36,628 nucleotides of DNA, taken from the NCBI GenBank assembly GCA_902602655.1, contig CACKRM010000001.1, positions 95,591 to 132,218 of the forward strand, in the 5' to 3' direction. A model generated the notes under the pieces. It was not told the DNA's origin. It did no database searches and was given only the letters and a program-made list of their open reading frames with translations. The stretch is from an uncultured Pelagibacteraceae bacterium (GTDB lineage Bacteria; Pseudomonadota; Alphaproteobacteria; Pelagibacterales; Pelagibacteraceae). Positions 10,858 to 30,064 of the stretch are shown piece by piece. The translations under genes were made by a program, and so were the position numbers. Numbering within the stretch: position 1 is the stretch's first letter; the number at the start of each line of letters is the position of its first letter.

Positions 10858-10982
10858 ATTTTTTTAAGTTTCTTTCTTGAAAAACTACCTTTTCCTTTTT
10901 TGGGTTTCACTATTCTTTTATGATATTTTTTTGAAAAGAGATCTATAGCAATTTTATTTCTTTTTTTATATTGAGTAACCAT
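10854..10982 (-). CDS. Small basic protein resembling ribosome-rescue factor ArfA
   Basis: A 42-residue ORF found by reading the minus strand of the gap after the PfkB gene. It starts with ATG at 10982 and ends with TAG at 10854-10856. It is very basic and contains HKRIVKPKKGKGSFSRKKLK, close to the E. coli ArfA segment FRQRVEKNKKGKGSYMRK, the part that places ArfA in the mRNA channel of stalled ribosomes. ArfA recruits RF2 to non-stop complexes as a backup to tmRNA. The ORF overlaps the end of the upstream regulator gene by 17 bp on the same strand, so it is probably translated by coupling. It fills the gap almost exactly. The motif is distinctive, but the protein is short and low in complexity, so homology is probable rather than proven. 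Confidence 0.62.
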   Translation of the reverse strand: MVTQYKKRNKIAIDLFSKKYHKRIVKPKKGKGSFSRKKLKKI

Positions 10983-11604
10983 TTTTTGTATTTAAAATTA
11001 ACTTATTGTCATTAAATTTATCTGAAATTTTTTTTCTCAATCTATAAATATGTGTTTCAACTGTATGGGTGTCTGCGTCTGAAGAATATTTCCAAACTTT
11101 TTCTAATATTTGTTCTTTTTTAACAGGAGTTTTTTTTATTAACAGTAGCTCTAAAAGTTCTATTTCTTTTTCAGTAACCATTATAAACAACTTATCTTTC
11201 TTAAGCTTTTTTTCATTCTTGTCTAAAATATAATTTTTGATTTCAACAAATGAATTTTGAAAAAATTTTTTTTTAACATTAAATTCAATTATTTTCTTAT
11301 TTAGTTCATTGATGCTTAAAGGCAAATCTATTCTATCATCATACTCCAATTTGGTTTTGTAATTAGGCTTTGCTAAAAGAATTTTGATTGTCTGTGTGCT
11401 CTTCAAAAATTTCGTTACTTCTTTATCTTTTAAAACATTTTCATGAACCATTAGAGCATTCAAATTTGAATTTATACTGTCGATTTGGTTGTTTTTTGAA
11501 AATTTTAGTTTAAATTTTAAATAACTTTTTAATTCTATGAGTGAATTTTTAAAGTTTGTGTCAGCTAAACATAAAATATTTATAATATTTGTTGAACTAT
11601 GCAT
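10966..11604 (-). CDS. OmpR-type winged-helix regulator with degenerate receiver domain
   Basis: A 212-residue protein. The C-terminal part (about 140-212) is an OmpR/PhoB winged-helix DNA-binding domain: TEKEIELLELLLIKKTPVKK, QILEKVWKY, then THTVETHIYRLRKKISDKF and the final hairpin ILNTKNGYSI. The N-terminal 120 residues have receiver-like spacing, but the phosphoacceptor region reads LNALMVHENVL with no Asp in the usual place. The conserved Lys-Pro turn reads DLPLSINEL (Leu for Lys). Phosphorylation by a histidine kinase therefore looks unlikely, and no kinase gene is adjacent. The start codon abuts the divergent L,D-transpeptidase start, and an ArfA-like gene overlaps the 3' end. The targets are unknown. 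Confidence 0.78.
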   Translation of the reverse strand: MHSSTNIINILCLADTNFKNSLIELKSYLKFKLKFSKNNQIDSINSNLNALMVHENVLKDKEVTKFLKSTQTIKILLAKPNYKTKLEYDDRIDLPLSINELNKKIIEFNVKKKFFQNSFVEIKNYILDKNEKKLKKDKLFIMVTEKEIELLELLLIKKTPVKKEQILEKVWKYSSDADTHTVETHIYRLRKKISDKFNDNKLILNTKNGYSI

Positions 11605-23366: not shown

Positions 23367-24698
23367 TTATTTACCAATACAAAAATCTTGAAAGATTGAT
23401 CCAAGTATTTCTTCTACATCGACTTTACCTACAATGCTTCCAAGATGCCTAGTTGCTAATCTAAGATCTTCTGCTGCTGTCTCTATTTCTTTTTTTTGGT
23501 CTTTCTTTAGAAACTTTTCTATTTCTTTAAGAGTTGCTTCAAGCTTGATACGATGTCTTTCCTTAGTAATCAGAATATCATTTGTTTTCATAAATTTTTT
23601 ACTAAGTTTTAATTTTATAGTTTTAATTAAGTTGTTGATGTTTTTGTTTTTTTTGACTGATATTAAAATTTGATTATTTTCTTTAAACACATTTTTGGGA
23701 ATTTTTTTTTCTAAATCTGACTTGTTAAAAACTAAGATACAATCTTTATTAATTAGTTTTTTTAAGTCTCTATTTATTGTTTTTTTTGAAGCATCTACCA
23801 TAATCAAGATTAGATCAGCATCTTTAGCTTTTTTAATTGCTCTTTTTATCCCTTCTTTTTCAACTTTGTTTTTTGCTTTTCTAATCCCTGCTGTATCTGC
23901 CAAAATAACTGGGTAACCATCAATGTTAAGATAAGTTTCTATAACGTCTCTGGTGGTTCCTTCTTGTTCTGATACAATAGCTGCCTCCCTTTTTGATAAG
24001 AGATTTAATAGTGAAGATTTACCTACGTTTACATCTCCTAGAATAGATATTCTAAATCCATCTCTAATTTTTTCTCCAATTTTTTGATCTTCTAATATTT
24101 TTTTGATGCTTTTATGAACTTGCTTAATAGAGCTATGGACTTCTTTCAAAATATTGTGGGGCAGATCTTCCTCTGTAAAATCGATTTTGGCTTCAATATA
24201 AGATAAAGATTTAATTAATTTTTCTCTTAAAGAATTGTAATAATTTGAAGCATTTCCTTGAATTAACTTTATAGCTTGTTGTCTCTGGAGATCAGTCTCA
24301 GCATGGATAAGATCTCCAATACTTTCTGCTTCTAACAAATCTATTTTATTGTTTTGGAATGCAATTTTTGTAAATTCACCTGGTTCAGCTAACCTGCAGT
24401 TTTCCCTCTCACCTAGTACTCTCAAAAAACAACTTATAACCGCGTTGCTACCATGAGTATGAAATTCTGCTAAATCCTCGCCAGTATAGCTATTAGGACC
24501 AGGAGACCATAATAACAAGCCCTCATCTATAACTGTCCCACTGGATGGATCATGAAATTTGCAAATGTTGACTTCTTTTGATTTTATATTATTTTTTTTT
24601 GTGATCTGTTTTGAGATCTGTAGACTGTCTTTTCCAGTCAGTCTTATTATTGCGATACCAGAAGGTCCTCTTCCTGTTGATAGTGCGAATATATTCAT
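23367..24698 (-). CDS. mnmE: tRNA modification GTPase MnmE (TrmE)
   Basis: Potassium-dependent GTPase and folate-binding partner of MnmG in wobble-uridine modification. The 443-residue protein has an N-terminal folate-binding domain (FALSTGRGPSGIAIIRLTG, then YTGEDLAEFHTHGSNAV). Helical domain segments surround a G domain with GDVNVGKSSLLNLLSKREA (around residue 215), EGTTRDVIETYL, ILADTAGIRKAKNKVE and FNKSDL. It ends in CIGK, carrying the essential C-x-G-K Cys. It is 35 bp from the divergent methyltransferase gene and 47 bp upstream of mnmG. Confidence 0.97.
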   Translation of the reverse strand: MNIFALSTGRGPSGIAIIRLTGKDSLQISKQITKKNNIKSKEVNICKFHDPSSGTVIDEGLLLWSPGPNSYTGEDLAEFHTHGSNAVISCFLRVLGERENCRLAEPGEFTKIAFQNNKIDLLEAESIGDLIHAETDLQRQQAIKLIQGNASNYYNSLREKLIKSLSYIEAKIDFTEEDLPHNILKEVHSSIKQVHKSIKKILEDQKIGEKIRDGFRISILGDVNVGKSSLLNLLSKREAAIVSEQEGTTRDVIETYLNIDGYPVILADTAGIRKAKNKVEKEGIKRAIKKAKDADLILIMVDASKKTINRDLKKLINKDCILVFNKSDLEKKIPKNVFKENNQILISVKKNKNINNLIKTIKLKLSKKFMKTNDILITKERHRIKLEATLKEIEKFLKKDQKKEIETAAEDLRLATRHLGSIVGKVDVEEILGSIFQDFCIGK

Positions 24699-24733
24699 TT
24701 CATTCTTTTTGTTTTTTTCTTAACATAGAATAT

Positions 24734-25183
24734 ATGAAAAATACTATTTCTTTTAACACTAAGTTTGGCTGGGTTTCAGCAACTGAAATTAACCAAAAAA
24801 TCACAAGAATTCAGTTTAACAAAACCTCAAAATCAGGAAGATTTTCAAAAAATCTTAAAAATCTTAAAAAAATGTTGAATAATTATTTCAAAGGAAAAAC
24901 TAATAAAATAAACGCACCAATTAGTTTAAAAGGTAATAATAATCAAAAAAAAATTTGGCGTGAGTTAAAAAAAATACAGCGAGGTAGTACAAATACTTAC
25001 GGAAAAATTGCTAGAAAATTAAAATTTTCACCAAGATATGTTGGAAAGGTTTGTGGTGAAAACAAACATGTTATTTTAATACCTTGTCATAGAGTTATTA
25101 GATCAGATGGATCAATGGGAGGTTTTAGTGCTAAGGGTGGAGTTAAGTTAAAAAAAAAATTAATACAATTAGAAAAATATTAG
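24734..25183 (+). CDS. Methylated-DNA--protein-cysteine methyltransferase (MGMT/Ogt-like)
   Basis: Repairs O6-alkylguanine by suicide transfer of the alkyl group to its own Cys. The 149-residue protein has the active site [20 protein letters not shown] near residue 115, preceded by the helix-turn-helix [16 protein letters not shown] and the arginine-finger region [14 protein letters not shown]. The N-terminal domain is minimal. I chose the ATG at 24734: a longer reading frame from 24611 runs antisense through the mnmE start and adds an unrelated hydrophobic stretch. Its last 4 bp overlap convergent rho. The gene interrupts the usual mnmE-rho adjacency. Confidence 0.92.
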
Positions 25184-26951: not shown

Positions 26952-27950
26952 TTAGTAAAAACACCTCTCTACAAGTTTTTGAAACAAATTTATATGGCTA
27001 TCATTGTCATTTAAGCAGGGAACTAAGTCAAAATTCTCACCTCCTGATTTGATAAAAGTTTCTTTTCCCTGAATTGCAATTTCCTCAAGAGTTTCGACAC
27101 AATCAGATGCAAACCCAGGACAAATAACTAAAATATTTTTTTTCCCCTCAGCAGGTAATTTTTCAAAAGTTTTATCAGTATAGGGTTGTAACCATTCTTG
27201 GGGGCCAAACCTAGATTGAAAAGAAGTTTGAATTGGTATCTCTTCTCCAAAAGTCTCAATTAAGAGTCTTGAGGTTTTCTGGCAATAACATTGATAAGGG
27301 TCTCCTTTGTCAAAATATTTTTTTGGGATTCCGTGATAAGAAGCTAGAATTAAATCTGGCTTCCAACTAATTTCATTTATTTTTTTTTTCAGACTATCAG
27401 ATAAAGCCTTTATATATAAATTATTTGATTCATAGTGTGGGATAATTTGTAAACTAGGCTGCCATCGCATTTTCATTAAGCTTCGGTAAACTTCATCACA
27501 TACTGTAGCGGTGGTTGCCGCGGCATACTGCGGATATAAAGGTAAAACTATCAAATTTTCGCATCCTTGTTCTTTTAGTTTTTTAATGACGCTTTCTATA
27601 CCTGGACTGCCATATCTCATTGCGTAATCAACCTTAAGGCTCTCGGAGCCAATTTTTTGAGATAATTTTTCTGTTTGTTTGATTGTGTAATATCTTAAAG
27701 GAGACATGTCCTCTTCTTTCATCCAAATTTCTTTATATGCTTTAGCAGTTTTTGAAGGCCTAAAATTTAATATAAATAAATTTAGAATGATCTGCCAAAT
27801 TATTGGGTTAACTTCAATTACTCTTCTGTCCGAAAGAAACTCTTTTAAATACTTTCTTATATCTAACCAACTTGTAGAGTCTGGGGTTCCTAGATTAACA
27901 AGAAGAATACCGGTTTTTCCATAATTAATTTTTGGGTGATTATTTTTCAT
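26952..27950 (-). CDS. hemH: Ferrochelatase
   Basis: Inserts ferrous iron into protoporphyrin IX to make heme. The 332-residue protein has GILLVNLGTPDSTSWLDIRKYL at the N-terminus (residues 14-35), YAMRYGSPGIE, LPLYPQYAAATTATV around residue 138, the catalytic His in LILASYHGIPKKYFDKGDPY and the C-terminal GFASDCVETLEEI. Several Cys residues (CYCQKTS) follow the catalytic His; I cannot tell whether they hold a [2Fe-2S] cluster. It overlaps hemE by 4 bp and is followed by hemJ. Confidence 0.96.
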   Translation of the reverse strand: MKNNHPKINYGKTGILLVNLGTPDSTSWLDIRKYLKEFLSDRRVIEVNPIIWQIILNLFILNFRPSKTAKAYKEIWMKEEDMSPLRYYTIKQTEKLSQKIGSESLKVDYAMRYGSPGIESVIKKLKEQGCENLIVLPLYPQYAAATTATVCDEVYRSLMKMRWQPSLQIIPHYESNNLYIKALSDSLKKKINEISWKPDLILASYHGIPKKYFDKGDPYQCYCQKTSRLLIETFGEEIPIQTSFQSRFGPQEWLQPYTDKTFEKLPAEGKKNILVICPGFASDCVETLEEIAIQGKETFIKSGGENFDLVPCLNDNDSHINLFQKLVERCFY

Positions 27951-28957
27951 TTATAAGATCTTACTTTTTCTATAACGCTTTTTAAAACCTCTGGGTTTGT
28001 TTCTGGGAGTAGCCCATGACCAAGATTAAAAATATATGCCCTATTATTAAATATATTTAAATATTTATCAACTTCATCAAACAACTTTCCTTCATTGTTT
28101 AATAAAAGTTTTGGATCCATACCTCCTTGCAAACAAACATTGTTCAAATTTTCCTTAGCCCAATTTGGATTTATATCAGAGTCAATGTTTAGACAATCAG
28201 GTTTAACTATTTCCATAAATTCTTTGTATCTGTATCCAATTCCTTTAGGAAAACATATACTAGGGATGTTAATTTTTCTGCAAAATTTTACAATTTCATA
28301 ATTTGGAGCATAACAAAACTGTTTTAAATGTTCTTCGGGAAGCAAACCCGCCCAAGAGTCAAAAATTTGTATTATGTCAGCTCCTGCTTCCTTCTGTTTT
28401 TTAATATGAATACATAAAAATTCTGTAATTTTTTGGAGCAGAGATTTGACTTCATCTTTATTAAAATTAAAATTTACTATATTTAAATCTTTTTTATTTT
28501 TTTTTAAATCAAACATGTAGATAAGTAAAGTCCAGGGGGCTCCAACAAATCCTATTAAAGATTTACTTTTATCAAGTTCTTTTCTAGTTTTTTCTATTGC
28601 TTTATATACTTGATCTAATTTATTTATAAATTTATTTTCTTTTACATCTAAAAGTTTATTTATTTCTATTTTAGATAGTTTTGGACCTAAATTTTTTTCA
28701 AATTTGACTTCTTGACCTAACCCAAATGGTAACATTAAAATATCTGAAAATATTATTGCTGCATCTAAATCATAACGTTTAATAGGTTGTAATGTAATTT
28801 CAGCACTTAATTCACTGTTAAGACATAACTTAATAAAGTCTGGATTTTGAGATCTAATTTTTTGAAATTCAGGTAAGTATCTTCCAGCTTGTCTCATAAA
28901 CCACACAGGGACACAAGACTTATCTTTATTGATCAAACATTTAGTTAATTTATTCAT
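27947..28957 (-). CDS. hemE: Uroporphyrinogen decarboxylase
   Basis: Decarboxylates uroporphyrinogen III to coproporphyrinogen III in heme synthesis. The 336-residue protein has the signature VWFMRQAGRYLPEFQKIRS near residue 18, AAIIFSDILMLPFGLG around residue 66, GFVGAPWTLLIYMFD near residue 136 and the C-terminal FNLGHGLLPETNPE. It is the first gene of the leftward hemE-hemH-hemJ operon and flanks the putative replication origin, as hemE does in Caulobacter and Rickettsia. Confidence 0.97.
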   Translation of the reverse strand: MNKLTKCLINKDKSCVPVWFMRQAGRYLPEFQKIRSQNPDFIKLCLNSELSAEITLQPIKRYDLDAAIIFSDILMLPFGLGQEVKFEKNLGPKLSKIEINKLLDVKENKFINKLDQVYKAIEKTRKELDKSKSLIGFVGAPWTLLIYMFDLKKNKKDLNIVNFNFNKDEVKSLLQKITEFLCIHIKKQKEAGADIIQIFDSWAGLLPEEHLKQFCYAPNYEIVKFCRKINIPSICFPKGIGYRYKEFMEIVKPDCLNIDSDINPNWAKENLNNVCLQGGMDPKLLLNNEGKLFDEVDKYLNIFNNRAYIFNLGHGLLPETNPEVLKSVIEKVRSYK

Positions 28958-29242
28958 TTATATTAATATTATATATTTATAAGTTTATTATTAGTAATAG
29001 GTCATGTTAACTTGTGAAGTAACTAGTTATACATAGTTTTGAACATTTTATTCTATAAAAATTGGTTAAAAATGAGAGATTTTATAAAGATATAAAATTA
29101 TATTAACATTTAATGATAACTTTAACTAAATATATCAACATCTAATAAAATGTTTAAGATATGTTAGTTCTTGTTAGCCTTTTTGAAAAATAATTAACAA
29201 AAAGGTATAAGATAAAGTTATAAAATTTGTATTAACAGACTT
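28958..29242. other. oriC: Candidate chromosome replication origin (oriC)
   Basis: A 285-bp, extremely AT-rich non-coding gap, the longest in the window, between hemE (minus) and the PPDK regulator gene (plus). In Caulobacter and Rickettsia the origin lies between hemE and the homologue of this regulator (RP001). Nine genes lead away to the left on the minus strand, interrupted only by the methyltransferase gene, and five to the right on the plus strand, as expected for leading-strand genes. parAB with parS-like sites is about 8 kb away. One DnaA-box-like TTATACATA occurs at 29027-29035 (one mismatch to TTATNCACA). ATTAACA appears three times (29102, 29193, 29231). No full CtrA site or clear DnaA-box cluster is visible, so the call rests mainly on context. 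Confidence 0.65.
29178..29205. repeat. Inverted repeat inside the candidate origin
   Basis: CCTTTTTG (29178-29185) and CAAAAAGG (29198-29205) form a perfect 8-bp inverted repeat around a 12-nt AT-only loop. It may be a protein-binding site, a hairpin at the origin or the leader of the PPDK regulator gene. It lacks the T run of an intrinsic terminator. Confidence 0.5.
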
Positions 29243-30064
29243 ATGACCGAAAAATACAATGTATATTTAATATCAGATTCAACTGGTGAGACACTAGACA
29301 GAATATTTTTATCATTAAAATCTCAATTTGCTAATTTTGATTATGATAAAAAAGAGTTTGTGTTTGTAAGAACAGAACAACAAATTGATAAAATTATATC
29401 TGAAGGAGCTTCGATAAAAAACTGTATAATACTTTATACAATTGTTGAAACTAGACTTGCGAAATATATATCAAAAAAAAGCGAGGAGAAAAATATCCCC
29501 TGTTTTGGTATATTGGGTAACTTAATATTGACGTTTTCAAAACTATTAAATCAAAAGGCGTCTCATAAACCAAGTGCCCAACATGTTTTAGACGAAGATT
29601 ACTATAAAAGAATAGAGGCTATACAATTTACAATGTCTCATGACGACGGAAAAAAAACAGAAGACATTATAAAATCAGATATAATTTTATTGGGTGTAAG
29701 CAGAACAGGAAAAACGCCCACTTCAATTTATCTTGCAAACAGAGGTTTTAAAACCATGAACATACCTTTAGTAGAAAAGCAAAATATTCCTGAAAATATA
29801 AAAACAAAAAACTTCAAATCTTGTGTTATTGGTTTATATGCTGATCCTCAAAGATTGTCAGACATTAGAAGGAATAGGGTTAATATAATGAACGAAACCA
29901 AAATACCCACTTATACAGATCTTGAATCTATTAAAAAGGAAGTTGAAGAGTCAAAAAAACTTTTTAAAAAATATAGTTGGCCTTCCATTGATGTAACAAG
30001 AAAATCAATAGAAGAAACAGCAGCATCAATAATAAAAATTTACGATATAAGTAAAGGAAAATGA
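29243..30064 (+). CDS. Pyruvate, phosphate dikinase regulatory protein (bifunctional kinase/phosphorylase, DUF299)
   Basis: Members of this family phosphorylate and dephosphorylate pyruvate phosphate dikinase, or PEP synthase, using ADP and Pi respectively, and so control PEP supply. The 273-residue protein has YLISDSTGETLDRIFLSL at the N-terminus, KPSAQHVLDEDYYKRIEAI near residue 108, and the nucleotide-binding HDDGKKTEDI...ILLGVSRTGKTPTSIYLAN around residues 133-166. Length is normal. No ribosome-binding site is evident. It is the RP001 homologue that marks the origin in other alphaproteobacteria, and overlaps maf (ATGA). Whether the target here is PPDK or PEP synthase cannot be read from the sequence. 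Confidence 0.92.
   Translation: MTEKYNVYLISDSTGETLDRIFLSLKSQFANFDYDKKEFVFVRTEQQIDKIISEGASIKNCIILYTIVETRLAKYISKKSEEKNIPCFGILGNLILTFSKLLNQKASHKPSAQHVLDEDYYKRIEAIQFTMSHDDGKKTEDIIKSDIILLGVSRTGKTPTSIYLANRGFKTMNIPLVEKQNIPENIKTKNFKSCVIGLYADPQRLSDIRRNRVNIMNETKIPTYTDLESIKKEVEESKKLFKKYSWPSIDVTRKSIEETAASIIKIYDISKGK

Follow-up and report, generated by a model that had tools for sequence, protein, structure and literature searches.

A candidate chromosomal origin with variant DnaA-box spelling between hemE and the PPSR gene of a SAR11 bacterium

The stretch of DNA that we analyzed (36,628 nucleotides; hereafter, the window) forms the right end of contig C1 in a genome of 724 kb (62% complete). It comes from a branch of SAR11 that we take to be the one usually called clade II. 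Few groups of marine cells are as abundant as the SAR11. Within the window, an intergenic gap separates hemE from the gene for PPSR: Pfam finds URO-D in the left-hand neighbor and Kinase-PPPase in the right-hand one, which bears out the hemE/RP001-homologue context that an initial annotation of the sequence had proposed (Table 1). The gap had also been described as the longest non-coding gap in the window and as extremely AT-rich, and both descriptions are accurate. Between the ORFs that we took as genes, the next-longest gaps are 244 and 211 bp (versus 285 bp), and a GC content of 17.2% compares with 29.6% for the window. Just 47 of 36,344 sliding stretches of 285 bp are at least as AT-rich as the gap, and all 47 are located at the gap.

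As annotated, genes diverge from the gap, with nine minus-strand genes to its left and five plus-strand genes to its right. By Pfam and profile matches, the left arm reads hemE-hemH-hemJ-rho-mnmE-mnmG-rsmG-parA-parB on the minus strand; this run is interrupted by a plus-strand ORF (24611-25183). The gene cluster from hemE to parB is the usual neighbor of alphaproteobacterial origins.

Table 1. Features of the hemE-PPSR gap and its flanks (positions within the window)
Feature	Position	Strand	Evidence
hemE, left flank	27947..28957	minus	Pfam URO-D, E = 2.8e-91
Candidate chromosomal origin (oriC), intergenic gap	28958..29242	none	285 bp, 17.2% GC; length and motifs kept in relatives
AT-rich strip from hemE to the trio-like block, proposed unwinding side	28958..28985	none	Sequence; role suggested by the BUS layout as described in PMC8287927
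DnaA-trio-like block, TAT TAT TAG TAA TAG	28986..29000	plus	Present in 37/37 representatives
Spacer GTCA, from trio-like block to reverse box	29001..29004	plus	Alignment
Reverse DnaA-box-like site, AAGTTAACA	29005..29013	minus	Alignment; AACA 97-100% conserved
Conserved site, TTTATACA / TTATACATA	29025..29035	plus	Alignment, motif counts
Second site of the pair, TTTTGAACA here, consensus TTTTATACA	29037..29045	plus	Final ACA 97-100% conserved; 11-12 bp from the first
Box-like ATATTAACA, this genome	29100..29108	plus	PWM 10.5; alignment with relatives uncertain
Box-like site, ATATCAACA	29132..29140	plus	Alignment; position 5 free, position 6 A in 97%
Reverse site 1 in a tandem of three, TCTTAAACA	29151..29159	minus	Alignment
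Reverse site 2, GAACTAACA, consensus TAATTAACA	29162..29170	minus	Alignment; 11 bp from site 1
Reverse site 3, AGGCTAACA	29172..29180	minus	Alignment; 10 bp from site 2
Box-like TAATTAACA, this genome	29191..29199	plus	PWM 11.2; columns not conserved
Box-like GTATTAACA adjoining the PPSR start	29229..29237	plus	Last ACA 100% conserved
PPSR / Kinase-PPPase (RP001, COG1806), right flank	29243..30064	plus	Pfam PF03618, E = 6.2e-88

We examined 110 loci. Thirty were found via hemE in the genus of the window (37 genomes, 34 of them with a match; the best 30 gave loci), and 80 were found via PPSR in named records (the best 80 of 133, at 70-83% identity and with kinship to the window not given), which include Ca. 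Pelagibacter ubique HIMB058 and SCGC AAA795-E07. The two sets share genomes, so a genome may count twice, and the rows of related gaps are kin, so counts are not independent. With that proviso, the order hemE-gap-PPSR is found in all 107 scorable loci, which belong to the window's genus or lie near it, and the gap is 263-286 bp long, with 92 distinct sequences. Conservation of the gap among relatives, which the initial annotation had named as a check, is therefore confirmed. The other three loci could not be scored: a contig end cuts off PPSR in L030 and L031 and hemE in L081. Among full-length loci of the hemE set, HemE is 54-62% identical to the window's, yet the gap aligns with fixed blocks.

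The gap also persists where a flanking gene has been replaced. In f2, another family of the same order, the arrangement is hemE-gap-maf, with 262-281 bp between the genes, in 20 of 20 loci (L142-L161; a hemE match was found in 21 genomes, and 20 of them were used); in the stretches adjoining hemE, which were the part searched, none of the 20 has PPSR. In genus g5, which belongs to the window's own family, rho takes the place of hemE and a 353-bp gap separates it from PPSR (2/2 loci, L205 and L206). Genus g6 retains hemE-gap-PPSR, with 280 and 282 bp (2/2). Because the gap persists when PPSR is replaced by maf or hemE by rho, neither flanking gene alone explains it. Farther afield, a profile search for PPSR (PF03618) in 30 small alphaproteobacterial genomes gave four matches, three of them above the cut-off and one already known, and added gaps from G106 (family f48) and G197 (f133); two further f48 gaps were located by their distance from dnaA.

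The initial annotation considered the gap to be poor in canonical DnaA boxes. This holds for the canonical spelling: TTATNCACA does not occur in the whole window, where 1.6 copies are expected. It does not hold for putative boxes in general, as these are mostly spelled NTATNAACA: DnaA boxes seemed to be missing because their spelling had drifted. Across the 92 related gaps, TTATNAACA has 172 copies in 80 gaps, against 12.1 expected (expected counts for the gaps are from 20 rounds of dinucleotide shuffling), while TTATNCACA has 7 copies against 3.4 (and 7 in the largest round). Two control words were near expectation or below it, with 0 copies of TTATNGACA (2.1 expected) and 11 of TTATNTACA (11.4 expected). 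In the 20 f2 gaps, TTATNCACA has 6 copies versus 0.7 expected, and TTATNAACA has 4 versus 1.4 (largest round, 3). The 8-mers give the same picture: TATNAACA is in 88 of the 92 gaps and TATNCACA in 10, versus 6/20 and 20/20, respectively, in f2. Among 37 representatives at below 75% identity, TATNAACA is in all 37 and TATNCACA in 6. All four g5 and g6 gaps that were read contain TTATNAACA. The gap in the window shows the pattern in degenerate form, with three copies of TATNAACA and no exact TTATNAACA.

At the site at 29132-29140, the fifth position varies (T59, C24, A16) and the sixth is A in 97%. DnaA boxes leave position 5 free, and the site follows their pattern with A in place of C6. The tandem of reverse sites (29151, 29162, and 29172) has spacings of 11 and 10 bp, or one helical turn. 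The DnaA-box-like TTATACATA that had been pointed out at 29027 is present and is kept in relatives (57 copies in 51 of the 92 gaps, 5.5 expected). The palindrome TAACTAGTTA at 29020 is also present, but by eye the alignment has no conserved block there in relatives. All three copies of ATTAACA are where they had been noted, and their conservation differs: the copy at 29231 is within a conserved box, the copy at 29193 falls in non-conserved columns, and the alignment at 29102 is uncertain.

In family f48 (G106, G224, and G314), the 460 bp beside PPSR contain 3, 1, and 4 copies of TATNAACA and 0, 1, and 1 copies of TATNCACA. The hemE-PPSR gap of G119 (another AT-rich alphaproteobacterium; family f61, L208) has three copies of TTATNAACA beside TTATCCACA and TTATACACA, that is, both AACA and CACA boxes. 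The G197 gap has two copies of TTATCCACA and no TATNAACA.

To score the boxes jointly, we used a position weight matrix (PWM) of six box columns from 35 representatives, with the window and AG-426-L23 left out. The gap is the top-scoring 285-bp stretch of the window (60.9; the next, at about 11085, scores 48.6). In AG-426-L23, the gap scores 68.8, versus 47.7 or less in 400 kb sampled from its contig outside the gap. In G255 (genus g6), of which 800 kb were sampled, the gap has the top score (63.9, with 59.8 for the runner-up). In two other genomes the gap was not first: it scores 43.3 in G341, where the best of the 400 kb sampled is 52.3, and 28.5 in G152, where the best of the sample is 59.6.

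Near the hemE edge, the plus strand reads, in order, a DnaA-trio-like block (28986-29000), GTCA, and the reverse site TGTTAACTT. Across the 37 representatives, 106 of 184 triplets of alignment columns in the trio frame are TAN, versus 10/184 and 21/184 in the other frames. A count based on an anchor gave 96, 8, and 20 for 33 of the 37 representatives, although requiring AG before the box favors the trio frame. By a rough estimate, a run of TAN in a single sequence is not rare; the case rests on its conservation among related rows that are not independent. Conservation is highest in the triplet adjacent to the box (T92 A92 G95), and 3'-GAT-5' is reported as the most frequent trio adjacent to the box (PMC8287927). 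In that account, the BUS, an unwinding system made of a DnaA box plus DnaA trios, calls for three or more trios (3'-NAN-5') no farther than 16 bp from a DnaA box. The window has five trios at 4 bp from the reverse AACA site, and this fits the rule only if the site counts as a box. The gap shares with the BUS a run of 5'-TAG/TAA/TAT triplets, on the expected strand and in the expected order, at no more than 16 bp from a box-like site; it differs in that the box is non-canonical and the spacer is 4 bp, versus a reported peak at 10-13 bp (PMC8287927).

The gap lacks a full CtrA site (TTAA-N7-TTAA), as had been noted: no match is exact and five have one mismatch. One-mismatch matches occur at chance levels across the window (150 versus 157 expected). 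This absence had been thought notable; it is instead expected, since a curated model found no CtrA equivalog above the cut-off in 11 SAR11 genomes and, according to Brilli et al. (PMC2877005), Pelagibacter lacks a ctrA orthologue. All 11 genomes had sub-threshold matches to the model (best, 142.5 bits; cut-off, 350), which was above the cut-off in 1 of 14 controls and was built on a narrower group, so that it might overlook a CtrA that has diverged strongly. Exact TTAA-N7-TTAA sites are present in 46 of the 92 related gaps (a raw count), perhaps because TTAA-like words compose the box arrays. The IHF site WATCAN5WTR does not occur in the window's gap; it is found in 31 of the 92 related gaps and in none of the 20 f2 gaps. 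Among 43 places listed for PF00486, the proteins that we read look like PhoB, ChvI-like, OmpR-like, or degenerate orphan regulators (named by eye). GcrA (L241, G000:C1:782-1210) occurs in 50 of 61 relatives. One orphan, degenerate OmpR-type regulator, in which only the DNA-binding half scores, is encoded in the window itself (10966-11604, minus strand), and the second PWM peak of the window falls inside this ORF; AG-426-L23 has a similar orphan regulator (L237).

The gap is a variant of the known alphaproteobacterial hemE/COG1806 origin, as described for Caulobacter (Cori) and Rickettsia prowazekii (PMC1914354). It has the same two flanking genes and an AT content above the window's average. 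It differs in lacking TTATNCACA (which is above chance in f2), an exact CtrA site, and the IHF consensus, with no CtrA equivalog found, and it is shorter: 285 bp, versus 383-404 bp in Rickettsia and Caulobacter (PMC1914354). The titles, abstracts, and passages that our literature search returned contain no description of a SAR11 origin.

Synteny, the persistence of the gap with replaced flanks, the conserved box-like motifs, the PWM peak obtained without the window, and a coarse fit of GC skew (below) all support the proposal of the initial annotation that this is a replication origin. Judging from these sequence comparisons, the gap at 28958-29242 very probably serves a clade II-like SAR11 bacterium as its chromosomal origin (oriC). 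DnaA would occupy about eight conserved ACA-ending sites, mostly NTATNAACA, several of them at a spacing of one helical turn. A DnaA filament would extend from the reverse box (29005-29013) onto the trio-like strand (TAT-TAT-TAG-TAA-TAG) near hemE; the AT-rich strip at the hemE edge would be melted and the helicase loaded; and forks would depart both ways along the divergent genes. We infer the binding of DnaA to these sites, the start of unwinding at the hemE edge, and the start of replication at the gap, and we are quite confident of the reading as a whole, that is, an origin with about eight ACA-ending DnaA sites and trio-primed melting at the hemE edge.

The DnaA protein of this genome is a DnaA equivalog (TIGR00362, 480.7 bits; cut-off, 343.9), and the signature GGRDH is absent from it. 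In its place is ANRDH, as FANRDHTT before the recognition helix. We presume that the positions concerned correspond to residues 430 and 431 of E. coli, which we placed on SAR11 DnaA by counting back from R432. In the window's genus (g1), FANRDHTT is found in all 24 proteins read (of 32 matches). The other two genera have FSNRDHTT (g6, 2/2) and FTGRDHTT (g5, 2/2), f2 has FGGRDHTT (18/18), the three f48 genomes have FGGRDHT, and G119 has one residue deleted (KKFNRDHTT). Elsewhere in the class, where 314 of 386 genomes matched and signatures were read by eye among the matches listed, we saw GN, GD, GK, SG (G182), and further one-residue deletions (G104, G080, G096, and G144); origins were read for few of these. 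GGRDH is usual, not invariant, and it is less fixed in the class than we first took it to be. A second match to the C-terminal (box-binding) domain of DnaA, in a 137-amino-acid open frame, occurs in one genome (G111:C1:1688587-1688778, L196).

If the gap is the origin, then its AACA sites may be weak, AT-drifted boxes of an ordinary DnaA, with the change in the DnaA signature being unrelated; this seems to us to be slightly on the probable side of even. Family f48 fits this account, as it has FGGRDHT yet has TATNAACA sites beside PPSR. There are precedents as well. Caulobacter likewise has an origin without strong DnaA boxes, using moderate G-boxes and very weak W-boxes, but there the weak sites accompany CtrA binding (PMC4468827) and here no CtrA protein was found. 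The spelling TTATTAACA is the same as that proposed for the DnaA box of Mycoplasma hominis, M. mobile, and M. arthritidis, although those belong to another phylum, with an origin upstream of dnaA that is called putative there (PMC2751442). What weak boxes do not account for is the site at 29132-29140, where A is kept at 29137 in 97% of sequences while the neighboring fifth position varies freely: plain drift would not hold the one and free the other. Also, f48 and f61 partly keep canonical boxes, whereas the window's genus hardly does (TATNCACA in just 10 of 92 gaps).

Alternatively, box recognition may have been re-coded in the window's family, with FGGRDH losing its first G (E. coli 430) and the core changing from CACA to AACA at the same time; we regard this as somewhat unlikely. 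In its favor, the signatures of all three genera differ from that of f2, and the boxes differ in parallel: TTATNAACA is in 80 of 92 g1 gaps and in every g5 and g6 gap read, and TATNCACA is in every f2 gap. G119, with a residue deleted from its signature, also has three copies of TTATNAACA. A clade-specific box core that goes with changes near the DnaA recognition helix is known from the Epsilonproteobacteria, where the core has T at position 5 and the variation is at residues 435, 438, and 439, versus A6 and changes just before R432 here (PMC5043019). Several observations weigh against re-coding. The three genera are one lineage, so they count as one event, and the signature varies in the class outside the family. 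The residues of E. coli DnaA reported to contact bases (399, 423, 432-435, and 438-439; PMC5043019) look unchanged from f2 in an alignment read by eye, under our placement of the E. coli numbering. Six genomes with GN (families f64, f125, and f53) have no TTATNAACA and three of the six have TTWTNCACA, though most of these genomes are GC-rich. Because f48 pairs GG with AACA boxes, a strict coupling of signature and box is rejected. Asparagine at E. coli 431 is likewise rejected as the sole cause of the shift: g5 has G there yet has AACA boxes, and the six FGN genomes point the same way (weakly, given their GC content). On these comparisons, the coupling is suggestive rather than proven. The wider idea that a marine family without CtrA re-coded its DnaA/box contact, including the box that would prime trio-based unwinding, is tentative and, we think, rather doubtful. 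AACA boxes themselves have precedents; what seems to be new is an alphaproteobacterial family with almost only AACA boxes and a changed DnaA signature. Should a paired change of DnaA and box be confirmed, it would offer a natural experiment on joint change of an initiator and the sites that it recognizes.

The gap could instead be a mere promoter region shared by hemE and PPSR, whose motifs bind a transcription factor. Since the two genes diverge, both promoters must lie in the gap or overlap it. We nevertheless consider this very unlikely as a full account: the gap stays when maf stands in for PPSR and when rho stands in for hemE, promoter-like matches are at chance (6 versus 4.4 expected), and the gap has no Rfam match. 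An RNA element in the gap is rejected on the same search, which extended to an E value of 0.1.

The GC-skew check that the initial annotation had proposed was made in relatives, by sampling 20-kb stretches of the complete genomes G255, G152, and G341. With a symmetric terminus, the skew contrast at the gap is 0.0444, 0.0651, and 0.0417, respectively (permutation P = 0.0002, 0.0002, and 0.014), and at dnaA it is 0.0459, 0.0453, and 0.0439. If the terminus is left free, the gap is outscored by 4%, 3%, and 30% of positions. In AG-426-L23, the best single switch of skew on a 638-kb contig is at 330 kb; the gap, near 285 kb, is outscored by 11% of positions. Skew thus agrees coarsely with an origin at the gap but does not separate the gap from dnaA, which lies 60-75 kb away in the genomes compared and about 60 kb away in the window's own genome. 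An origin at or near dnaA fits the skew slightly better in G255 and G341, but it fits worse in G152 and would come with hardly any boxes (upstream stretches of 300 bp from 24 dnaA genes, or 7,200 bp, contain a single TATNAACA and no TATNCACA), so we give it next to no credence; in the same count, an array of DnaA boxes at the dnaA promoter was not seen.

If the gap is the origin, its mapped position would allow growth to be estimated from coverage ratios with the correct zero point. In one paper, alignments of SAR11 genomes begin at dnaA (PMC12421898), which is 60-75 kb from the gap. In both g5 loci (L205 and L206), dnaA is on the PPSR side of the gap, not on the hemE side.
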